A stretch of DNA of 35,221 nucleotides, from positions 1 through 35,221 of IMG/VR virus record IMGVR_UViG_3300048589_000236; one strand, written 5' to 3'. The notes beneath the pieces are model-generated. The model did no database searches, was not told where the DNA came from, and saw nothing but the letters and a program-made list of their open reading frames with translations. The position numbers were made by a program, and so were the translations under genes. This stretch comes from a virus. Below are positions 4,048 through 35,221 of this stretch, in pieces (position 1 is the stretch's first letter; the number at the start of each line of letters is the position of its first letter).

Positions 4048-5171
4048 ACAGGTAGCAATCCTTGTCCGGGTTCAAGAATACCGGAAATAAATCGCGCAAC
4101 GCGGGTAACTTCAATATCGACAAGGGCTACTTCCGGCGTAAAGCCGACTTTCCACCCACGCAAACGGTAGCGACCGTTGAGATGTGACTTATCTCCTTGC
4201 AAGTAAATATCTACTGTTCGGTTAATTTCTTGGTAGGGATCAGGCATGGTTCGGAATGTAATGATCTTCTCATAGGCTCCGGCGTTATCCAGTCGCTCCT
4301 GTGCCAGTGCATCAAGCGCCTCTTGATCTTCGGCGTCATCGACCGTTTCCGGACCAATGACAATCTCTCGTTCGAGAGCCGCTGTAGACCACGGCACAGC
4401 CGGATTATCTTCACGGGCAATCGCTGTGAGTGTAGATTCGTCGGTTCGTTCTCGTTGCAAAATAACGACATTCCCAAACTTGTCAGCCGGTGGCGTCTCT
4501 ACGCTCAGTACATCAACAAGGTTTTCTTCGGTGTAGAGCTTTGCAGGCTGTGTTTTAGACAGGCTTCGGAACGGGAGTGATCGCAAACGACCGTCGCGTT
4601 CCATGAATAGTTTATACCATCCGTGCCGTTGAAGAAAACTATTTGCCGCTTCAAGGCGGCTTGTGCCTACTTTAAAGCTACGTGCCTTGCCAAGTGTCTT
4701 TGTTGTTGTCGGGAAACTCACCCGAGAAAGGCCAACGTCTGTCACCAGTGAGGTTACATTTGTTACGAGGTTTGTTCCGGCTGCAAAGTTTTCTCGGTCA
4801 GTAAACTTCGATACGGAAAGCAAGAATGTTAGGTCACGTCCCTCAATCGTTGTCTCCCCCGTGACCGGAGTGTGTTCTTCCCCGAACGGCATGACCACAA
4901 AAATCCCCATTGGCTCACGGATGGTGTCTGATCCATCTTCGTATTCCAAAATAAGATATGGCATGATGAAGTCTGCATATGGACGTACAACATCGGTTGC
5001 GGAAAGGCGGAAGGAACACCCCATTGGTGTTCCCCCGCTTCGATCCCCGTGCCAGTCTACTGATCCGGAGAGAACGTAATCAGACAAATCTTCAAGGGGG
5101 AATCCGTCAATATCTGTGCGCCATAGTTCAGATGAAATTGTAACTCGCCCACCAATAGGAACAGTCGCCAT
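4044..5171 (-). CDS. Tail hub / baseplate-like minor tail protein
   Basis: The 375-residue protein has the features of siphophage tail hub proteins (gp27-like fold, Siphovirus ReqiPepy6 Gp37-like): an N-terminal beta domain with SDYVLSGSVDWHGDRS, a central GIFVV and TTIEGRDLTFLL region, and LYTEENLVDVLSVETPPADK followed by GNVVILQRER. A C-terminal region with DKSHLNGRYRLRGWKVGF and a final ILEPGQGLLPV completes it. Its ATG overlaps the previous stop (TAATG). Order after tape measure and the large tail protein, and before the OB-fold tip protein, matches a hub at the tail end. Confidence 0.75.
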   Translation of the reverse strand: MATVPIGGRVTISSELWRTDIDGFPLEDLSDYVLSGSVDWHGDRSGGTPMGCSFRLSATDVVRPYADFIMPYLILEYEDGSDTIREPMGIFVVMPFGEEHTPVTGETTIEGRDLTFLLSVSKFTDRENFAAGTNLVTNVTSLVTDVGLSRVSFPTTTKTLGKARSFKVGTSRLEAANSFLQRHGWYKLFMERDGRLRSLPFRSLSKTQPAKLYTEENLVDVLSVETPPADKFGNVVILQRERTDESTLTAIAREDNPAVPWSTAALEREIVIGPETVDDAEDQEALDALAQERLDNAGAYEKIITFRTMPDPYQEINRTVDIYLQGDKSHLNGRYRLRGWKVGFTPEVALVDIEVTRVARFISGILEPGQGLLPV

Positions 5172-29146: not shown

Positions 29147-29225
29147 TGGAGCATCTGACAGGAATCGAACCTGCGTCCTGCGATTTACAAGATCGCTGCT
29201 CGGGACCAACGTGAGCTACAGATGC
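29147..29225 (-). tRNA. tRNA-Thr(UGU)
   Basis: The acceptor GCATCTG/CAGATGC, D stem GCTC/GAGC, anticodon loop CTTGTAA in a five-bp GCGAT/ATCGC stem, and T arm CAGG-TTCGATT-CCTG all form. Discriminator T and an encoded CCA follow. Confidence 0.93.
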
Positions 29226-29226
29226 A

Positions 29227-29535
29227 TTATTTTCGGGTTGTCCTTCCGTGTCCCTTATTTCTACCTCTATAGGTACCCGTAAGACTGTGACAATTGGGAC
29301 ACAGCAAAATAAGATTGCTCTCCGTATTCGCGTGTCCGCTTATGTGATGTACTTCCAGTGGAACTTCACCAGTTATCGGATGTGTTTCACACCAGCCGCA
29401 AACAGCACACTTATTATCGTATTTCTCAAACAAATAACGGCGAACGTGTTTAGACACTCCTACTTTACCACGGCTACCATCTACATGTCCAGCTTTCCAT
29501 AGTGTAATGTATTTTGTGTAGTCTAAACCGTTCAT
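29227..29535 (-). CDS. HNH homing-type endonuclease
   Basis: The start is ATG 29535 with GGAGA upstream, 102 residues. It has a YITLWKAGHVDGSRGKVGVS N-terminal DNA-contact region, then CAVCGW, VPLEVHHISGHANTESNLIL and CPNCHSLTGTYRGRNKG: an HNH fold with two zinc CxxC pairs. It is a paralog of the gene at 33175. It sits between tRNA-Gly and tRNA-Thr, as free-standing homing endonucleases often do. Confidence 0.85.
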   Translation of the reverse strand: MNGLDYTKYITLWKAGHVDGSRGKVGVSKHVRRYLFEKYDNKCAVCGWCETHPITGEVPLEVHHISGHANTESNLILLCPNCHSLTGTYRGRNKGHGRTTRK

Positions 29536-29552
29536 TGGTTCTCCGTAGCACA

Positions 29553-29626
29553 TGGAGTCAGTGACAGGAATCGAACCCGCGTTCATTGCTTGGAAGGCAA
29601 GCACCTAACCACTCGGTCACACTGAC
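29553..29626 (-). tRNA. tRNA-Gly(UCC)
   Basis: Acceptor GTCAGTG/CACTGAC pairs fully; anticodon loop CTTCCAA reads UCC; T arm GCGGG-TTCGATT-CCTGT. One mismatch at 27-43. CCA is encoded. Confidence 0.85.
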
Positions 29627-29746
29627 AGGGTTCCGGTGTTTTCCCACACGCGCCGGTACGTGCCGCAAACTATTGTCCCCGTGGCCTTTGGGGGTGGAAG
29701 TCGGGACAACCACACGGAAGCTTTACCTGTTCACCGCATTGAGCCG

Positions 29747-29818
29747 TGCTCCTGAGTGGATTCGAACCACCAACCCCGGCTTTAAGAGAGCCTTGCTCTA
29801 CCATTGAGCTACAAAAGC
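29747..29818 (-). tRNA. tRNA-Lys(CUU)
   Basis: Acceptor GCTTTTG/CAGGAGC (two GU pairs), D stem GCTC/GAGC, anticodon loop CTCTTAA, T arm GGTGG-TTCGAAT-CCACT, discriminator A. No CCA encoded. The interval 29627-29746 to its left holds no clear gene. Confidence 0.88.
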
Positions 29819-29974
29819 GAGTTTCACACCATACAGTCGAAGTACACAGTACACCATCAGGACAAAAATGGCAATACCCTCCAAGTCCATCAGGAGTTGT
29901 GTGTCATGCAGGCTGTGCCGACAGAGAACAATCATCCCGACAAGCAACGCCAATACACCGACAACGTGTACCAT
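29798..29974 (-). CDS. Small membrane protein sandwiched between two tRNA-Lys genes
   Basis: ATG 29974 lies just after the 3' end of tRNA-Lys(UUU) (discriminator at 29977); its acceptor-stem G run is the only purine-rich site upstream. The 58-residue product has two hydrophobic segments (VGVLALLVGMIVLCRH and IAIFVLMVYCVLRLYGV). The TAG stop lies within tRNA-Lys(CUU). No family is recognised. Confidence 0.5.
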   Translation of the reverse strand: MVHVVGVLALLVGMIVLCRHSLHDTQLLMDLEGIAIFVLMVYCVLRLYGVKLAFVAQW

Positions 29975-29976
29975 AG

Positions 29977-30048
29977 TGCCCCCGGTGGGATTCGAACCCA
30001 CAACTTCGCGTTTAAAAGACGCTTACTCTACCATTGAGTTACAAAGGC
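29977..30048 (-). tRNA. tRNA-Lys(UUU)
   Basis: Acceptor GCCTTTG/CGGGGGC, D stem ACTC/GAGT, anticodon loop CTTTTAA, T arm GTGGG-TTCGAAT-CCCAC, discriminator A, no encoded CCA (CTA follows). Confidence 0.9.
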
Positions 30049-30049
30049 G

Positions 30050-30123
30050 TGGAGAGCGGTAGCGGATTCGAACCGCTGTCCTGTCTGTTGCAGAGACGCG
30101 CCTAACCACTCGGCCAACCGCTC
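30050..30123 (-). tRNA. tRNA-Cys(GCA)
   Basis: Acceptor GAGCGGT/ACCGCTC, D stem GCC/GGC, anticodon loop CTGCAAC, T arm ending GCGG-TTCGAAT-CCGC; discriminator T and encoded CCA. One mismatch at 27-43. It starts one base from tRNA-Lys(UUU). Confidence 0.88.
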
Positions 30124-30129
30124 ACTCAG

Positions 30130-30202
30130 GGTGCCTAACGGGGTTCGAACCCGTGTAACATGCTCCACAGGCATGCGCCTAGACCGCTCGGCCATAAACA
30201 CC
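30130..30202 (-). tRNA. tRNA-His(GUG)
   Basis: Acceptor GTGTTTA/TAGGCAC plus an extra G at -1 opposite C73, the histidine identity feature. Anticodon loop CTGTGGA; T arm CGGG-TTCGAAC-CCCG. No CCA encoded. Confidence 0.93.
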
Positions 30203-30209
30203 ATAGAAC

Positions 30210-30470
30210 TTAGGAAACGACAAGAAATATACTTGCAAATTCCCTTTCGGTAAAGTCCTGCACGCTCCCGTCAGCCACCAACCACGTATTCACCGGAAGG
30301 GTATACATTCCAAGATAGAGAACATTATTCCGCACACAATATTGATTATCGTAGTCCCCCGACAAACGAAGATTCCGATCCAGCCACGCTTGCACATCAG
30401 CACTGTTATGGCCGTTCCAGTGAATTGCCGGGTACGTATCAGGCTCCCGGTACATGACTTCGACTTGCAT
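30210..30470 (-). CDS. Small phage protein of a common tRNA-cluster family
   Basis: Start ATG 30470, with GGAAAGGG upstream; 86 residues. The C-terminal half (VLYLGMYTLPVNTWLVADGS, VQDFTEREFASIFLVV) follows the pattern of small phage proteins ending in a PGDW(L/I)V..G....F....F...Y motif. Their function is unknown. It lies between tRNA-Arg(UCG) and tRNA-His with almost no spacer. Confidence 0.65.
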   Translation of the reverse strand: MQVEVMYREPDTYPAIHWNGHNSADVQAWLDRNLRLSGDYDNQYCVRNNVLYLGMYTLPVNTWLVADGSVQDFTEREFASIFLVVS

Positions 30471-30485
30471 ACCGTACCCTTTCCG

Positions 30486-30560
30486 TGGTGCCGCTGGCAG
30501 GACTCGAACCCGCACTACAACGTTCGAAGCGTTGCGTGTTTTCCTTTACACTACACCGGC
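30486..30560 (-). tRNA. tRNA-Arg(UCG)
   Basis: Acceptor GCCGGTG/CAGCGGC with one G-G mismatch, D stem GTGT/ACAC, anticodon stem CAACG/CGTTG with loop CTTCGAA, T arm GCGGG-TTCGAGT-CCTGC, A73 and encoded CCA. Confidence 0.9.
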
Positions 30561-30579
30561 AAAAACGAGCTACTGGCGA

Positions 30580-31008
30580 TCACGACGACTGACGCACTCT
30601 CGGGCGTTTATTACGACAATCTTTACATTCTGACTGCACATTATTCCATCGACTACTGCTTATACCAAAATTCGACCGTTCTTTCGTCTGTTTACATGAA
30701 CAACAACGAAAAACATCACCATCTAAACTTATCCGGCGTCTTACCGCTCCGTTAACGTGCGGTCTATTACAAGAGATATGACTAAACGCTATATTACTCA
30801 AATCCCAAAATAGTTCTGCGGACCTACCCTCCCACGGTTTAATGTGTTCAATAGATAAATCGTCAATCAGTTCTATTATATTCTTACACTTATAACATAT
30901 ATTGTCTCCTGCAAGACAGACATACTTAAATAACAACTGTTTACGTAAGCGATTTGTAGCCGTGCCATGCGGCATACCGAGTGTTTCCGCCTTTTTCACA
31001 TTACCCAT
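30580..31008 (-). CDS. HNH endonuclease with extra C-terminal zinc knuckles
   Basis: ATG 31008 has GGAGG upstream; 142 residues. An N-terminal helix (TATNRLRKQLLFKYVCLAGD), CYKCKN, LSIEHIKPWEGRSAELFWDL and NIAFSHISCN make the HNH domain; a second region FRCCSCKQTKERSNFGISSS and ECKDCRN adds a four-cysteine zinc site. It resembles small phage HNH proteins that pair a nuclease with a zinc ribbon. The gene is more AT-rich than its neighbours, which suggests recent arrival. Confidence 0.78.
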   Translation of the reverse strand: MGNVKKAETLGMPHGTATNRLRKQLLFKYVCLAGDNICYKCKNIIELIDDLSIEHIKPWEGRSAELFWDLSNIAFSHISCNRPHVNGAVRRRISLDGDVFRCCSCKQTKERSNFGISSSRWNNVQSECKDCRNKRPRVRQSS

Positions 31009-31041
31009 GCTTAACCTCCGTTTTGATAGGTTAGTTGTTAG

Positions 31042-31115
31042 CAGTCACGACGTGGATCGAACCCGCAACCTCCGGCGTGACAAGCCGGTGCTCTCCCAAA
31101 TTGAGCTATGCGACC
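31042..31115 (-). tRNA. tRNA-Asp(GUC)
   Basis: Acceptor GGTCGCA/CGTGACT (two GU, one mismatch), D stem GCTC/GAGC, anticodon stem CCGGC/GCCGG with loop TTGTCAC, T arm with one mismatch, discriminator G as expected for Asp. CCA not encoded. Confidence 0.82.
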
Positions 31116-31116
31116 G

Positions 31117-31192
31117 TGGTATCCCCGGCAGGATTCGAACCCGCACCTTGCACGGTAGAAACGTGCTGCACTGTCCATTATACCACAGGGAT
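31117..31192 (-). tRNA. tRNA-Arg(UCU)
   Basis: Acceptor ATCCCTG/CGGGGAT, anticodon stem GCACG/CGTGC with loop TTTCTAC, T arm GCGGG-TTCGAAT-CCTGC, A73 and encoded CCA. One base separates it from tRNA-Asp. The next stretch (31193-31317) holds no confident gene. Confidence 0.9.
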
Positions 31193-31317
31193 GTTGCCAA
31201 ATGCGTACGTCATTTGGCCGAAATCAGAAATCTCAACCCGTACCGTCGCACCATATCTGGCTTGCAAGCGTGTGAGTAACGCTCCGGTTCTTTTGGTCTA
31301 TCGGATTATTCGACCGG

Positions 31318-31389
31318 TGCTGACAGGCGGATTCGAACCGCCGACCATCTGGACTTCAATCAGACGCTCTACCACTGAGCTACATCAGC
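31318..31389 (-). tRNA. tRNA-Phe(GAA)
   Basis: Acceptor GCTGATG/TGTCAGC, D stem GCTC/GAGC, anticodon loop TTGAAGT, T arm GGCGG-TTCGAAT-CCGCC, A73 followed by CCG, not CCA. Confidence 0.9.
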
Positions 31390-31394
31390 ATGAG

Positions 31395-31462
31395 GGAAGT
31401 GTCGGACTTAAACCGAATCTCCGGTTTTAGACGGTGCTCTGCCAATTGAGCTACACATATCC
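31395..31462 (-). pseudogene. Decayed tRNA, Trp-like
   Basis: The D arm GCTC..GAGC and a T arm remnant (TCGG-TTTAAGT-CCGA, with T where the loop's conserved C should be) are visible. The anticodon arm CACCGTCTAAAACCGG has lost about three bases compared with a Trp-type arm, so only three base pairs form. The acceptor GGA..GTG/CACTTCC has extra bases on the 5' side. It cannot fold as a working tRNA. Confidence 0.7.
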
Positions 31463-31588
31463 TATGTGCCCGATTGAGTCCGGACATAACTGCTGGCTCA
31501 CCGTATGCATCCGTCTTTCCAGCCCGAATTGCTTCACCGAGACTAACGATTCATGGTCGGCTCTCTCGGGAGAGGCGCTTGGCTACGG

Positions 31589-31673
31589 TACGCAGGGAGG
31601 GATTCGAACCCATCACGCCCTCTCGGGCACTAGTTTCTAAGACTAGCGTGTATACCAGTTCCACCACCCACGC
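31589..31673 (-). tRNA. tRNA-Leu(UAG)
   Basis: Long variable arm (TGCCCGAGAGGGCGTG), anticodon stem CTAGT/ACTAG with loop CTTAGAA, T arm ATGGG-TTCGAAT-CCCTC, acceptor GCGTGGG/CCTGCGT. A73 is followed by CCG. Confidence 0.9.
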
Positions 31674-31680
31674 ATGTGTA

Positions 31681-31920
31681 CTAGTAACACACTAGTACGT
31701 CGTTCACAATGACAAGTGCTTCGTCAAGGGACTTTCCCGACCAACCGATCATTTCCGCTTCATCGCTCTCTCCGAGGATTTCGTAGGAGTCGAACTCTAC
31801 TCCGGCCAGTCTCAGAAGTTCGTCTCTTGGGATCGAATGTCCTTCATAGACTTTCTCCCCGTTGACGTACATCTGAATCCAGTCGCCTGTGTCCCATTTG
31901 ATAAATGCGATCTTCGGCAT
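31681..31920 (-). CDS. Small acidic protein of unknown function
   Basis: ATG 31920 has GGAG upstream; 79 residues. It begins MPKIAFIKWDTGDWIQMYVN and continues with an acidic region (LLRLAGVEFDSYEILGESDE). No motif is recognised. It lies between tRNA-Leu(CAA) and tRNA-Leu(UAG). Confidence 0.7.
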   Translation of the reverse strand: MPKIAFIKWDTGDWIQMYVNGEKVYEGHSIPRDELLRLAGVEFDSYEILGESDEAEMIGWSGKSLDEALVIVNDVLVCY

Positions 31921-31971
31921 CTCGTCTCCTTCACTGAAATCAGTATACCCGATTTCCGACTACTTGTCAAG

Positions 31972-32060
31972 TGGTACCCCTCACAGGACTTGAACCTGTA
32001 CGCCGATCCCTCGGCTCCGGCGTTTGAGGCCGTCGTGTCTGCCAGTTCCACCAGAAGGGC
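31972..32060 (-). tRNA. tRNA-Leu(CAA)
   Basis: Class II tRNA: acceptor GCCCTTC/GAGGGGT, anticodon stem with loop CTCAAAC, long variable arm, T arm ACAGG-TTCAAGT-CCTGT, encoded CCA. Confidence 0.9.
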
Positions 32061-32061
32061 A

Positions 32062-32135
32062 TGGATCAGGGAATAGGATTCGAACCTATACAGATGGTTC
32101 CAAAGACCATCGGCCTACCGTTAACCGATCCCTGA
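32062..32135 (-). tRNA. tRNA-Gln(UUG)
   Basis: Acceptor TCAGGGA/TCCCTGA, D stem GGTT/GGCC with GU pairs, anticodon stem ATGGT/ACCAT with loop CTTTGGA, T arm ATAGG-TTCGAAT-CCTAT, T73 and encoded CCA. Confidence 0.9.
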
Positions 32136-32139
32136 ATGT

Positions 32140-32159
32140 GCCCGGACGCGTCTCCGGGC
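32140..32159 (-). other. Stem-loop between thyX and tRNA-Gln
   Basis: GCCCGGA and TCCGGGC form a 7-bp stem with a 6-base loop. There is no T tract on either side on the minus strand, so it may be a processing or attenuation hairpin downstream of thyX. Confidence 0.4.
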
Positions 32160-32202
32160 CTGTTCTTACGATGTGCAGTAGTCTGACGGCCCGTGCATTC
32201 TC

Positions 32203-32979
32203 CTAGACCTTCGGATGTTCGAACGAGACAGACGGAATCCCGTCACTCGCTCCATAGTTCACGGTTGCGTCGGCAAAGAGTGCCGGAGCAACATCTGAAA
32301 TCGCCTGATACACTTCCCATGCAAACTCTCTGATTGAGAGGTCCGCATGTTCGTTGGATCGCAGATTAATGATGTGCCGTGCGGCACGGCCATTCATGCT
32401 TACCATACCGTCGCTTCCAGCGGCATTCGGGAGCACAGCCCGTGCTGCTTCCTTGATGCGTTTCCGTGCAAGCGTTCCTTCATCGGAGTCGGACCCCGAC
32501 AGTGCCTGCAACGCTGTGTAGTAGTCTTGTGCGAGATTCGCCGCGCTTGTAAAGAGTGCAATGGCATCGTCGTCCTCCCGTAGCCGTGGTGGAACCACGA
32601 ATCGTAGATGAGCGTCCGTAAACCGTTGACTTTCGAAACTAAATCCCGTTCCTTCCCCATGTCGCACCAATTCAAGCTGCGAACTTCGGGGAAGGTCTGC
32701 CACCAGCATATTGAACCAGACGTGTTCGAGCACGCTTCCATGCTCATGCCCGATAATTTGCTCGGCAATATATTCCTGACGTGTCCGCCCTTGCGGATTC
32801 CGCCAACTGTGGTAGCACACACGGCCTGCCATTTCAACAATCGCCAGTGGATCATCCTTCGGATTCTCCGTAATCCATTTCACACCGCGATGATCTAGAT
32901 AGCGGCGGATTTCTGGCATGACCGGCTGTGTATACCCGACCAAAAAGACTTTTGGCCCCTCACGGTTAATCTGAACCAC
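32203..32979 (-). CDS. thyX: Flavin-dependent thymidylate synthase
   Basis: The start is GTG 32979 with AAGGAGG upstream; 258 residues. ThyX makes dTMP from dUMP with FAD and folate. HEHGSVLEHVWFNMLVADLP and the stretch beginning RHGEGTG and ending FSFESQRF (106-120) replace the usual RHR-x7-S signature with RHG plus a short insert. GMVSMNGRAARHIINLRSNE and ADLSIREFAWEVYQAI form the C-terminal region. Length is normal. It provides thymidine for phage DNA. Confidence 0.85.
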   Translation of the reverse strand: MVQINREGPKVFLVGYTQPVMPEIRRYLDHRGVKWITENPKDDPLAIVEMAGRVCYHSWRNPQGRTRQEYIAEQIIGHEHGSVLEHVWFNMLVADLPRSSQLELVRHGEGTGFSFESQRFTDAHLRFVVPPRLREDDDAIALFTSAANLAQDYYTALQALSGSDSDEGTLARKRIKEAARAVLPNAAGSDGMVSMNGRAARHIINLRSNEHADLSIREFAWEVYQAISDVAPALFADATVNYGASDGIPSVSFEHPKV

Positions 32980-32988
32980 ATTCCCTCC

Positions 32989-33078
32989 TTAGAGAACGAT
33001 TTGATCGGTCAATAGTGCCCATGCAAGGAGCGCAAAGAATACGCCCAAGAAAATCGCTGCAATCAGGTTCCAGTTCAT
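32989..33078 (-). CDS. 29-residue membrane peptide upstream of thyX
   Basis: ATG 33078 has GGAGAAA upstream (GGAAGGAGA). The peptide, starting MNWNLIAAIFLGVFFALLAW, is a single hydrophobic helix with a short polar end. It stops ten bases before the thyX start. A strong ribosome site and clean composition support expression; its function is unknown. Confidence 0.65.
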   Translation of the reverse strand: MNWNLIAAIFLGVFFALLAWALLTDQIVL

Positions 33079-33095
33079 ACGGTTTCTCCTTCCCG

Positions 33096-33170
33096 TGGTC
33101 GGGGATCAGGTACTCGAAACCTGTCCACATCGTCCCAAACGACGTGCGCTAACCCTTACGCTAAACCCCG
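33096..33170 (-). tRNA. tRNA-Pro(UGG)
   Basis: Acceptor CGGGGTT/ATCCCCG (one mismatch), anticodon stem CGTCG/CGATG with loop TTTGGGA, T arm CAGGT-TTCGAGT-ACCTG, A73 and encoded CCA. C1 agrees with a bacterial proline tRNA. Confidence 0.88.
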
Positions 33171-33174
33171 ATGA

Positions 33175-33507
33175 TTACCTTTTCTTGGGTAGGCTTTGTG
33201 CCAACCCGGACTTATTTCTTGCTCTATAGTTATAGGTTAAAGAGTGACAGTTTGGGCAGAGCACTTTTAAGTTTTCTTCTCTGCTGTTCTGATAGTCTCC
33301 ATCAATGTGATGAACTTCAAGTGTTACTTTTCCGGTAAACGGATTTATCGCGCCCCAACCGCATTCTTCACACGTATTTCCGCACCTTTCAAGCAAGTAA
33401 CGGCGCACATTCGCAGAGACGTCTATATGTATTATACCGCGATTTCCGCTTACAAGTCCCGCCTTCCACAAAGGAATGTAGTCGGCATACTTTATAACTT
33501 TTGGCAT
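33175..33507 (-). CDS. HNH homing-type endonuclease, paralog of the gene at 29227
   Basis: 110 residues. ADYIPLWKAGLVSGNRG, ANVRRYLLERCGNTCEECGW, VTLEVHHIDGDYQNSREENL and LCPNCHSLTYNYRARNKSG align over the length with the 29227 protein (LWKAG, RRYL, CGW, EVHHI.G, CPNCHSLT, RNK). Start ATG 33507 with a weak AAAAGG site. It lies next to tRNA-Pro. Confidence 0.85.
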   Translation of the reverse strand: MPKVIKYADYIPLWKAGLVSGNRGIIHIDVSANVRRYLLERCGNTCEECGWGAINPFTGKVTLEVHHIDGDYQNSREENLKVLCPNCHSLTYNYRARNKSGLAQSLPKKR

Positions 33508-33530
33508 GCGTATATAAACCTTTTCTCAGA

Positions 33531-33616
33531 TGGAGGACGATGTGCGATTCGAACGCACACAACCTTGCGGTTGGGAGGGATAGCAACCCTCTGGAATACC
33601 CTTATCCCAATCGTCC
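33531..33616 (-). tRNA. tRNA-Ser(GCU)
   Basis: Class II: acceptor GGACGAT/ATCGTCC, anticodon stem GAGGG/CCCTC with loop TTGCTAT, variable arm CCAACCGCAAGGTTG, T arm GTGCG-TTCGAAT-CGCAC, encoded CCA. Confidence 0.92.
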
Positions 33617-33620
33617 ACGG

Positions 33621-33703
33621 AGGATCAGGTGAGATTTGAACTCACATAACCTTTCGGTTAGATAGTTTTCAAGACTATTGGGCTACCGTTACCCCACTGA
33701 TCC
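33621..33703 (-). tRNA. tRNA-Ser(UGA)
   Basis: Class II: acceptor GGATCAG/CTGATCC, anticodon stem ATAGT/ACTAT with loop CTTGAAA, variable arm CTAACCGAAAGGTTA, T arm GTGAG-TTCAAAT-CTCAC. T73 is followed by CCG. Confidence 0.92.
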
Positions 33704-34079
33704 GAAGTGTTTTATCGTCTACTTTTTCAAACGTTACAATTCCCCGAGATACTTCTGCATGGCAGTTTGGGCAAATAGCATACATATTGCCGATGACATA
33801 TTCTCCACCCAATTTACCGGGTATATATCGGTGAATGTCAAACGTTTTTGTATAGCCACAACCCTCTACCATACACTCGGTAAAGTTGAACGTGTTTTTC
33901 AGCAAATTAAGGCGTTGTCTGGAACTGTTACCGTGAGAGTCTTTCGAATACGTCATCCCTCGGCGTGCCGTGTTGCTGCAAGCTCGGGAACAGTATTTCG
34001 ACGTTCTCTTTTCTGCTTTGTATGATTTCTCACACTGGTTGCATACTAGCTGCACGGTATCACTTCCTTGCATCACCAT
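33675..34079 (-). CDS. HNH endonuclease with N-terminal zinc finger
   Basis: The start is at one of two nearby ATGs (34079 or 34073), neither with a strong ribosome site. VCNQCEKSYKAEKRTSKYCS and RACSNTARRG form an N-terminal four-cysteine finger; CMVEGCGYTKTFDIHRYIPG, GNMYAICPNCHAEVSRG is the HNH core. The stop TAG lies inside the tRNA-Ser(UGA) gene, so the last eight or so codons overlap the tRNA. Confidence 0.72.
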   Translation of the reverse strand: MVMQGSDTVQLVCNQCEKSYKAEKRTSKYCSRACSNTARRGMTYSKDSHGNSSRQRLNLLKNTFNFTECMVEGCGYTKTFDIHRYIPGKLGGEYVIGNMYAICPNCHAEVSRGIVTFEKVDDKTLRISGVTVAQ

Positions 34080-34089
34080 CAAAAGATCA

Positions 34090-34368
34090 TTACTTGGTTT
34101 GTACCGGAGGAACGGGTTGGAACAACGCTCTGGTTTGTGCCGCTCGTTCGATACGTCCCTTGGCAATCATCTTCCGTTGTTGAATTGCTGCAATCCGCGA
34201 TTCAAGATCAGCAATCGACTGATTCGATGCGTCAATCTCTTGCACAGCGGTTGCTTCAAGTTGCTCTGTCAGTTCCGCGACTTCTGCGAGTTTCGCTTCC
34301 AGTGTCGTTTCAATCGTTGAACTGGTCGAAACCTTGGTCTTTTGTTTCACTGACGAAAGAATAGGCAA
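34090..34368 (-). CDS. Small coiled-coil protein
   Basis: The start is TTG 34368 with AAGGAGA upstream; 92 residues. Residues about 20-70 are a long coiled coil (TTLEAKLAEVAELTEQLEAT, SIADLESRIAAIQQRKMI). No family is recognised. The composition agrees with neighbours. Confidence 0.65.
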   Translation of the reverse strand: MPILSSVKQKTKVSTSSTIETTLEAKLAEVAELTEQLEATAVQEIDASNQSIADLESRIAAIQQRKMIAKGRIERAAQTRALFQPVPPVQTK

Positions 34369-34392
34369 CGTGTTCTCCTTTCACCTACTCGG

Positions 34393-34464
34393 TGGACCAA
34401 TGGGGATTCGAACCCCAATCTGACTACGTGCAAGGTAGTAGCTTTCCCGTTAAGCTATCGGCCC
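34393..34464 (-). tRNA. tRNA-Ala(UGC)
   Basis: Acceptor GGGCCGA/TTGGTCC includes the G3-U70 pair, the alanine identity element. Anticodon stem ACTAC/GTAGT with loop CTTGCAC; T arm TGGGG-TTCGAAT-CCCCA; A73 followed by CCG. Confidence 0.93.
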
Positions 34465-34709
34465 TCAGTGTGATATTGCGGACGCGTCTGCTCGACGTCA
34501 TCCCGAAACGCATGCTCTCCGATCTTCTCCATGAGTACCGTGTGGTACGGCTCAGGGAAGGCCGCTTGTGCATGCACGGCGGCATTCTTCAGTTGTTGCT
34601 TCATTTCCTCTGGATCGTCTGATGACACGGCTGCATAGATGCCGATAGTCAGAATTGCCAGCGAAATGTAGAGCGATTCGATTTCTACGTTCTGTTCAGC
34701 AAATCGCAT
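34455..34709 (-). CDS. Small protein between tRNA-Tyr and tRNA-Ala
   Basis: The start is ATG 34709 with GGAGG upstream, 84 residues (a second ATG three bases earlier is possible). It begins with MRFAEQNVEIESLYISLAIL and continues LTIGIYAAVSS, a hydrophobic helix, then an amphipathic DDPEEMKQQLKNAAVHAQAA region. TAG at 34455-34457 lies at tRNA-Ala positions 8-10, so the gene cannot end without the tRNA sequence. No family is recognised. Confidence 0.62.
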   Translation of the reverse strand: MRFAEQNVEIESLYISLAILTIGIYAAVSSDDPEEMKQQLKNAAVHAQAAFPEPYHTVLMEKIGEHAFRDDVEQTRPQYHTEGR

Positions 34710-34721
34710 CATTGCCTCCGG

Positions 34722-34803
34722 TGGGCTGGACAGGATTCGAACCTGTGAACCAGTAGGACGTGTTTTACAGACACGCTGCTTTGAGCCGCTTGCATACCAA
34801 CCC
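34722..34803 (-). tRNA. tRNA-Tyr(GUA)
   Basis: Acceptor GGGTTGG/CCAGCCC, anticodon stem CGTGT/ACACG with loop CTGTAAA, variable arm TCCTACTGGTT, T arm ACAGG-TTCGAAT-CCTGT; A73 followed by CCG, which overlaps the next gene's ribosome site. Confidence 0.92.
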
Positions 34804-34808
34804 AAGTG

Positions 34809-34959
34809 AACGCTTCGGTGAGGGATTTCTACCGTCTCTCTGCACAGCCGCCCGTCCAGCGGACCCGAAGCGTTAGGATTGCTTGCCGTCTCCGTGCAGG
34901 AGAACAGCCCGGTGCAATCAACCGTGAGCCTGTTTTTTGAGACGACTGCTCAACGTCTC
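34809..34959 (-). other. Gene-free interval with inverted repeats
   Basis: Between tRNA-Tyr and the tRNA-like element, 34804-34961 has no convincing gene. AACGCTTCGG (34809-34818) is repeated inverted at 34865-34874, a 10-bp stem with a 46-base loop. GAGACG (34939-34944) pairs with CGTCTC (34954-34959) beside six T on the plus strand. It could be a regulatory leader or a processing region. Confidence 0.4.
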
Positions 34960-34961
34960 GG

Positions 34962-35047
34962 TGGAGATGGTGGGAGTCGAACCCACGTTTCCGGCGATCA
35001 TCAAGGTTGTACCCTCGCATCTACCGGGCGAACACCAAAACATCCCC
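34962..35047 (-). ncRNA. tRNA-like element with tmRNA-like acceptor/T arm and no canonical anticodon arm
   Basis: Acceptor GGGGATG/CATCTCC pairs fully with a G3-U70 pair; T arm is GTGGG-TTCGACT-CCCAC; A73 is followed by CCG. The middle 54 bases form no D stem at the usual place. The only candidate anticodon hairpin is CGAGG-GTACAA-CCTTG with a six-base loop, so no anticodon can be read reliably. The 3' end matches the B. subtilis tmRNA 3' end as I remember it (ACGTGGGTTCGACTCCCACC), and the 5' GGGG.TG....GG..TTCG resembles its 5' end. It may be a reduced tmRNA-like RNA, a nonstandard tRNA or a pseudogene. Confidence 0.55.
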
Positions 35048-35103
35048 ATGCAGTCTCCGCAGGATTATTAAGACGGGTACCCTATGTCCCCTGCTTCTTC
35101 GAC

Positions 35104-35136
35104 TGGTGGACCTACTAGGACTCGAACCTAGAACCT
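35104..35136 (-). pseudogene. tRNA 3'-half fragment with CCA near the window edge
   Basis: A T arm CTAGG-TTCGAGT-CCTAG (35115-35131), acceptor strand TAGGTCC, A73 and CCA are clear. No matching 5' strand (GGACCTA) or canonical anticodon arm occurs in the 85 bases upstream. It could be a truncated tRNA or the 3' half of an interrupted tRNA continuing past the window. Confidence 0.65.
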
Positions 35137-35182
35137 ACGGTACTGCTTTTGCAAGGCGAATATACGGTTTTCCCTTCCCTTT

Positions 35183-35188
35183 ATTATA
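35183..35188 (-). promoter_or_regulatory. Possible -10 element upstream of the tRNA operon
   Basis: TATAAT on the minus strand, followed by AAAGGG, lies between the window edge and the tRNA fragment. No convincing -35 is seen at 16-18 bases. It may start the tRNA operon or be part of a longer AT-rich leader. Confidence 0.3.
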
Positions 35189-35221
35189 AACTCCGTGGTT
35201 AGGAGTAAGTGAATGGCAGTT

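Follow-up and report, generated by a model that had tools for sequence, protein, structure and literature searches.

We analyzed the whole of IMG/VR virus record IMGVR_UViG_3300048589_000236, a stretch of 35,221 nucleotides referred to below as the window. Its minus strand carries an array of tRNA genes and an 86-nucleotide RNA that we call a mini-tmRNA. The initial annotation had proposed a tRNA-like RNA here without giving a strand; our analysis confirmed such an RNA and placed it on the minus strand. The features are listed with the basis for each, where R1 is a covariance model built from 38 other sequences without the window sequence, and G037 and Franklin22 hold the two closest RNAs.

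29147-34803, minus strand: tRNA array of 18 tRNA genes, on the same strand as the element and outside the RNA itself (ARAGORN)
34962-35047, minus strand: mini-tmRNA, a tRNA-like domain with a P2-like stem-loop, 86 nt (RF00023 model 1-374, 46.4 bits; R1, 47.6 bits)
35041-35047, minus strand: 5' strand of P1 (acceptor), GGGGAUG, with G3 at base 35045 (sequence, 7/7 pairs, RF00023 alignment)
35029-35040, minus strand: D-loop-like segment UUUUGGUGUUCG, aligning with the RF00023 segment after P1 (RF00023 and R1 alignments)
35023-35027, minus strand: 5' strand of P2, CCGGU (fold, family P2 covariation, 5/5 pairs)
35002-35017, minus strand: apical hairpin CGAGG-GUACAA-CCUUG, which caps P2 (fold; G037 and Franklin22 have a hairpin here too, each with a 6-nt loop)
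34991-34995, minus strand: 3' strand of P2, GCCGG (fold, pairing)
34970-34986, minus strand: T arm GUGGG-UUCGACU-CCCAC (RF00023 alignment, 5/5 pairs)
34963-34969, minus strand: 3' strand of P1 (acceptor), CAUCUCC, with U70 at base 34965 (RF00023 alignment, pairing)
34962, minus strand: discriminator A73 (sequence; the genome continues CCG)

An exact 19-base search of viral contigs returned one further copy, in a 67,645-base contig (L009). This contig is identical to the window across the 2,228 bases compared, and we take it to be the same phage. ARAGORN called 18 tRNA genes in the window and 8 further ones in L009, so that the overlapping contigs together (29147-34803 of the window and 10808-14854 of L009) hold 26 called tRNA genes covering all 20 amino acids. 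The array also encloses a thymidylate synthase-like gene (32203-32979) and an HNH gene (33175-33507). Next to tRNA-Phe, a degenerate tRNA-like sequence (31399-31456, minus strand) scored 27.0 bits, the cutoff being 29. At 34808-34920, in the interval that separates tRNA-Tyr from the mini-tmRNA, two inverted repeats were noticed by eye, AACGCTTCGG..CCGAAGCGTT and GGATTGC..GCAATC. At 35107-35174 (minus strand; L009 12393-12843) we found the 3' part of a tRNA, with T arm, acceptor strand and CCA, for which no fitting 5' half was seen. It lies directly downstream of a frame that matches HNH weakly (PF01844, 19.9 bits against a cutoff of 21.4), RF00005 gave 18.5 bits over a longer stretch, and it looks like a tRNA invaded or truncated by an HNH gene.

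The acceptor and T arms of the element are perfectly paired and carry G3-U70 and a discriminator A, as the initial annotation had stated. The tmRNA-like 3' end that it had noted also matches RF00023, whereas it had overlooked that the 5' end, GGGGAUGUUUUGGUGUUCG, is tmRNA-like too and that the middle contains a P2-like stem-loop. CCA is not encoded after A73, and the same CCG letters follow the neighboring tRNA-Ala and tRNA-Tyr. We considered a normal or degenerate tRNA and rejected it: ARAGORN made no call at the element, none of the 17 RF00005 matches in the window (E ≤ 0.001) fell there, and the middle contains no stem of 5 bp, even counting those with only 4 pairs, that closes a 7-nt loop carrying U33. 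The absence of a normal anticodon arm was thus borne out, none of the models used assigning a normal anticodon. The element is real and not a damaged tRNA.

Covariance searches with the tmRNA model recovered both ends of the element at a score just below the gathering cutoff of 47 bits. RF00023 gave 37.9 bits when 111 bases were searched and 46.4 bits both for 322 bases and for the whole 35-kb record (E = 4.0e-19 for the latter); the element was absent from a whole-window Rfam search at gathering cutoffs. In the narrow searches the match spans model positions 1-374 in standard order, with 326 central positions replaced by 40 nt, indicating that the 5' and 3' ends of a tmRNA are joined in the usual order and that the tag and pseudoknot region is gone. 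The apical hairpin occupies the position of the tag domain and pseudoknots of the usual tmRNA. The mRNA-like domain of a canonical RF00023 tmRNA, with resume codon, ordinary tag, stop and pseudoknots, is lacking, and no tag frame of ordinary length (about 10 residues) is present, the only alanine-codon-to-stop frames being GCC CGG UAG and GCG AGG GUA CAA CCU UGA (2 and 5 codons). What the element does have is what characterizes a CDS-less tmRNA of standard order, namely joined ends together with G3-U70 and A73 and no ordinary-length tag frame. The predicted anatomy is that of a tmRNA reduced to an alanine-type tRNA-like domain and a capped P2-like stem, the usual tag domain being absent.

With R1 the element scored 47.6 bits (E = 9.9e-8 over 0.9 Mb searched), against 25.5 bits for the best tRNA in the window. 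At 98 other loci (L010-L107) the same model gave 49.1-89.6 bits at the expected place, a result that holds partly by construction, as some of these loci built the model. The folding energy of the element is unremarkable (z = -1.42; 11/200 shuffles fold at least as well) and by itself would not have revealed it. An RNA read from the plus strand was rejected, as its fold was no better than that of shuffles (104/200 at least as good). We also rejected the 3' part of a longer tmRNA running across the window end, which a permissive wide search had suggested with an 18.5-bit match extending to that end: the narrow searches put both ends inside 34959-35047, and the overlapping contig carries upstream a reading frame with the weak HNH match (19.9 bits). 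The permuted tmRNA model RF04321 matched part of the 3' end (21.5 bits), and the order of the element is standard. RF02544 did not appear in the family listing, in which lower-scoring matches of the same clan were suppressed.

To find relatives, we scanned viral contigs and metagenome-assembled genomes (MAGs). A degenerate pattern with the tmRNA ends 25-55 nt apart matched 109 viral contigs (the L009 copy included) and 9 contigs among 84,980 bacterial and archaeal species. A second pattern that left the acceptor free gave at least 120 rows, so that counts over the two scans are lower bounds: at least 217 loci (209 viral, 8 on MAG contigs) with at least 156 distinct sequences, leaving out the window phage's own copy and L118. 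The latter, one of the 9 contigs and from Actinoplanes, was called by ARAGORN as tRNA-Ser, which we take to be a real tRNA-Ser; it was dropped from the representatives and pair counts and is still within the 118 first-scan loci. Among the matches listed, an acceptor with at least 6/7 pairs forms in 152 of the 156 distinct sequences, and these 152 are 66-95 nt long, 50 of them being 79 nt. The remaining four (L146, L193, L221 and L230) were omitted from the pair counts, although L146, judged by eye, is a true member whose spacer is longer. Across the 118 first-scan loci, ARAGORN called a tmRNA over the element in one and a tRNA in three, including L118. RF00023 matched at E ≤ 1e-6 in 36 of 37 records (35 viral contigs and the phages Shaeky and Yaboi), above the cutoff in 35; the one exception, G020, contains L047, with an R1 score of 76.4 bits.

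Membership in a tRNA array, as seen for the window element, is not the rule for these RNAs. In the first scan (118 loci, L009 and L118 included), ARAGORN found another tRNA in the stretch examined in 29, within 500 bases in 22, and none in 89. At some other place, six of the eight MAG genomes also have an RF00023 match that is longer (349-471 nt, 69.9-173.3 bits). Phage structural genes adjoin the element on MAG contigs L120 and L126; at L119, L121, L123 and L124 few neighboring proteins were examined, and they gave no clear signal of origin.

We analyzed the conservation of the RNA in 38 representatives, again without the window sequence. In P1, P2 and the T arm, 97.9% of cells were paired. 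The covariation score was 0.674, compared with 0.131 ± 0.015 in shuffles, none of 500 being as high, and pairing with slid partners reached at most 0.121. P2 covaries, all 7 of its pairs being altered on both sides in some of the representatives. Two cruder measures were less clear-cut: pairs changed on both sides numbered 11 versus 10.0 in shuffles (24/500 as high), and further pair types numbered 46 versus 41.0 (9/500 as high).

Some acceptor and T-stem bases were fixed by the scan patterns and carry no weight, whereas bases 70 and 73 were free in both scans. Among the matches listed, pair 3-70 was G-U in 151 of the 152 distinct sequences and A73 was present in all 152. The sole G-C at 3-70 among these matches belongs to L159, which has a misaligned, probably damaged acceptor end. 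The adjoining pair 4-69 varied (GC 125, CG 15, UA 5, AU 4 and GU 3 across the 152 sequences, among the matches listed), pairs 5-68 and 6-67 varied more, and changes at all three were compensated. The acceptor-free scan taken alone, in which G3 was also unfixed, gave G-U in 69/70, A73 in 70/70, and at 4-69 GC 43, CG 15, UA 5, AU 4 and GU 3 among the matches listed, with 4 of 74 distinct sequences omitted for having fewer than 6 acceptor pairs. G3-U70 is the determinant recognized by alanyl-tRNA synthetase (AlaRS). Since this determinant is fixed while the neighboring pair drifts, we infer that the RNAs of the family are charged with alanine. An AAARCC..GG apical loop is common and not defining (75/152 by a strict expression, among the matches listed), and GGAC precedes the T arm in 34 of 83 listed matches in which the pattern did not force it. 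The window member is divergent: it lacks the AAARCC..GG loop, has the GUACAA hairpin, and carries AAAC in place of GGAC before the T arm.

The two closest RNAs share the AAAC. A search with the terminase of the window phage returned 7 loci in viral contigs, one of them on the contig of L009. Among the six other terminase-linked records, R1 matched only in G037 (34.3 bits), whose terminase is 75% identical and whose RNA lies downstream of tRNA-Val(tac). Microbacterium phage Franklin22 carries its RNA between tRNA-Asn and tRNA-Gln (R1, 32.1 bits), where ARAGORN called no tRNA. RF00023 gave 37.7 bits for G037 and 41.1 bits for Franklin22, and the scores of both RNAs lie within the range of other things, such as a tRNA-like RNA at L048 (35.4 bits with R1) and short RF00023 matches reaching 38.9 bits (G045). 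As the scores are weak, kinship is drawn from shared anatomy: the window element, G037 and Franklin22 have in common G3-U70, 7/7 acceptor pairs, AAAC ahead of the T stem, and a P2 along with a hairpin whose loop is 6 nt long. Their acceptors differ in sequence, being GGGGAUG/CAUCUCC in the window, GGGGGUG/CACUUCC in G037 and GGGCCUG/CAGGUCC in Franklin22, and the compensatory change in the acceptor stem that had been suggested as a check is therefore present in the two closest RNAs. G036, whose terminase is identical to that of the window phage, gave no R1 match and no match to window positions 34300-35221; it may not cover the array and weighs neither for nor against the element.

Mini-tmRNAs were also found in ten cultured phages: the Streptomyces phages Shaeky, Yaboi, LuckySocke, GiJojo, pSt2308, BRock, Alone3 and Riptide, Stenotrophomonas virus Jojan60, and Franklin22. 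R1 scores ranged from 32.1 to 75.5 bits, and none is annotated as an RNA; in GiJojo and Jojan60 a hypothetical protein is annotated across the site or part of it. Streptomyces lividans is the host of LuckySocke, Alone3 and Yaboi. Camille (L137, R1 23.4 bits), RpAliso (L140, 27.4 bits) and S-CRM01 (L258, 23.9 bits) showed no clear mini form and were not counted. Yaboi and Riptide hold a long RF00023 match alongside the mini-tmRNA (281 nt, 92.7 bits and 269 nt, 92.9 bits, respectively), which we take to be full-length tmRNAs on the strength of these matches; among the 37 records mentioned above, Yaboi alone has one. In these two phages, the mini-tmRNA is thus not a mere worn-down copy of a sole tmRNA. 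We searched for SmpB (PF01668) and found it in 0/35 and 0/13 records, which share one record and so make 47 including the window; many are fragments, and the gene may lie elsewhere. The same search was positive in the 10 bacterial control genomes. These comparisons show that selection has maintained a tRNA-like domain with alanine determinants and without an ordinary message in phages for which the SmpB search was negative.

The initial annotation knew of no named family of this length. That statement was not supported, as tmRNAs reduced to the tRNA-like domain are described from some organelles and from mycobacteriophage DS6A, the latter by Mao et al. 2009 (PMC11915505, PMC4131195). The DS6A RNA is likewise phage-encoded, its sequence comprises little beyond the tRNA-like domain (PMC4131195), and it has no tag CDS; the DS6A form has been functionally tested, whereas our element is known from sequence, and we compared the two by description only. 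The CDS-less tmRNA of DS6A is described as inhibiting endogenous tmRNA in E. coli (PMC11915505), and a DS6A-like RNA as doing so whether charged or unchargeable, perhaps by titrating SmpB (PMC4131195). CDS-less organellar tmRNAs, mitochondrial (RF02544) or from Mallomonadaceae plastids (about 65 bp), also lack a tag frame (PMC11915505); the mitochondrial ones are usually permuted and accompanied by a mitochondrion-targeted SmpB, whereas the element is a phage gene of standard order. With canonical one-piece tmRNA (RF00023) the element shares the 5' and 3' ends, P1, the D-loop-like segment, the T arm, G3-U70, A73 and the P2-like stem, and differs in having neither tag domain nor pseudoknots and in its length, 86 nt against a 374-position model. 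Full-length phage tmRNAs such as that of Kumao (annotated 53105-53511) are phage genes as well, and at about 400 nt they have room for a tag domain, unlike the element. The element is best classed with a known, thinly documented kind, the tmRNA consisting of the tRNA-like domain only.

The tmRNA database of 2025 counts 97,179 tmRNAs, of which 79 are from phages and 9 are classed as 'Standard, no CDS', and its description discusses one phage example of a CDS-less tmRNA (PMC11915505). In the open-access literature searched, we found no paper on a phage family of mini-tmRNAs, which is not proof of absence. Judging from the at least 152 distinct sequences with an intact acceptor found here, against those 9 entries, mini-tmRNAs look far more widespread in phages than reported. 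The result also exposes an annotation gap, the mini-tmRNAs being unannotated in the ten named phages and ARAGORN making a tmRNA call at 1 of 118 loci.

What might such an RNA do? The idea that a phage-encoded alanine-type tRNA-like RNA with a tmRNA end plausibly acts on ribosome rescue gained support from the comparisons above. We consider the best explanation of the element, with a probability of about 60%, to be that it acts, once charged, as a dead-end RNA through which host trans-translation is blocked or diverted. The mini-tmRNA would be trimmed from the transcript of the tRNA array as its neighbors are, and host AlaRS would charge it with alanine through the strictly conserved G3-U70. 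Host SmpB and EF-Tu would then bind the charged RNA; delivery of the tRNA-like domain with SmpB by EF-Tu to non-stop complexes is described (PMC8012679). Where ribosomes have stalled on broken mRNA, the mini-tmRNA would enter their vacant A site and accept the nascent chain, offering no ordinary resume codon, tag or stop. In Helicobacter pylori the resume codon is reported as essential for rescue (PMC2584231), which argues that an RNA without one could not complete it. By competing with host tmRNA for SmpB and stalled ribosomes, the mini-tmRNA may block or divert host trans-translation during infection. In phage Wildcat the tmRNA is reported as the most highly expressed lytic gene (PMC7474061), suggesting that a phage tmRNA can reach high levels.

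A somewhat unlikely alternative is tag-less rescue, in which the charged mini-tmRNA with SmpB would free stalled ribosomes with no degradation tag being added, through drop-off or hand-over to another release pathway, and so spare ribosomes and nascent phage proteins. The alanine determinants kept in the family are consistent with this, as are the tRNA genes of the window phage, which cover all 20 amino acids when L009 is counted, and the CDS-less mitochondrial tmRNAs, described as conserved together with SmpB and thought to be helpful (PMC11915505). The strict conservation of G3-U70 possibly speaks for productive rescue too, and in that respect counts against the dead-end model. Against tag-less rescue stand the inhibition of tmRNA in E. 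coli by the DS6A analogue (PMC11915505, PMC4131195) and the need for a resume codon in H. pylori rescue (PMC2584231).

It is unlikely that the RNA is purely a sponge for SmpB (or EF-Tu or AlaRS), working by binding alone with no action on the ribosome. Such a sponge would be in keeping with the inhibition by DS6A-like RNA, charged or not, perhaps through SmpB titration (PMC4131195), and with the fact that SmpB was not found in the 47 records searched. However, binding alone should not fix G3-U70 while the adjoining pair 4-69 drifts; a sponge would not need this determinant, and its strict conservation points beyond titration, possibly to productive rescue. The dead-end, tag-less rescue and sponge readings share their first steps and overlap, and their probabilities are not additive.

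Decay of a tmRNA or tRNA gene, retained merely through its position in the tRNA array, seems improbable. The missing tag domain, the score slightly below the Rfam cutoff, and the other degenerate tRNA-like pieces in the same array (31399-31456 and 35107-35174) would fit decay. Yet P1 and the T arm are intact and preserved by compensatory change in the two closest RNAs, the family covaries, 89 of the 118 first-scan loci have no other tRNA in the stretch examined, and two phages hold a mini-tmRNA beside a long tmRNA match.

Very improbable, in our estimate, is that the element works as a tmRNA whose micro-tag, 1-5 residues long, is read from P2 or the apical loop. The element does hold the two short alanine-to-stop frames given above, and tags of 2 residues are reported for some bacteria (PMC11915505). 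However, both frames lie in helices and neither is shared by G037 or Franklin22, and the middles of the family show no enrichment of such frames (45/152, against a mean of 62 and a range of 43-77 in 200 shuffles, among the matches listed), giving no sign of a conserved micro-tag. It is hardly credible that the element is a piece of host ssrA serving as an attachment site for the phage. In favor, ssrA is described as an integration site with fragments occurring in prophages (PMC9004378, PMC11915505); against it, the element has its 5' end, and this end covaries with the 3' end.

Extending the dead-end reading from the element to its relatives, we tentatively propose, at slightly less than even odds, that they form a widespread, almost unannotated phage family of about 66-95 nt, alanine-charged dead-end acceptors that host SmpB would deliver, shutting off or diverting host trans-translation, sometimes beside the phage's own full-length tmRNA. 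If these RNAs act as expected, phage targeting of trans-translation would be common, no longer an oddity known from a single mycobacteriophage, and would become testable. Phages may commonly interfere with, or shortcut, host ribosome rescue.

Several observations concern other RNAs and the surroundings of the mini-tmRNAs. In a Peregrinibacteria MAG, a 68-nt mini-tmRNA-like RNA (L122, 6477-6544; R1, 48.5 bits) has cell-division and cell-wall genes as neighbors and appears chromosomal; this genome also has a longer RF00023 match (104.6 bits). At L048, 514 bases from a mini-tmRNA, positions 4049-4116 encode a 68-nt tRNA-like RNA that ARAGORN did not call. It lacks a D arm, its acceptor is GGGGAAU/AUUCUCC (G3-U70), and in its CUUGCAA loop the anticodon UGC (alanine) is read by eye. 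The array of G037 includes a tRNA to which ARAGORN assigned the anticodon tta (L250, 2651-2722), making it a suppressor of UAA stops. Going upstream from the mini-tmRNA, the first tRNA called is tRNA-Val in 7 of the 8 Streptomyces phages (Shaeky being the exception), in G037 and in the window phage as seen in L009 (loci L138, L251, L253-L256, L259, L250 and L009; anticodon tac where stated), and this common neighbor hints at a shared ancestral array.
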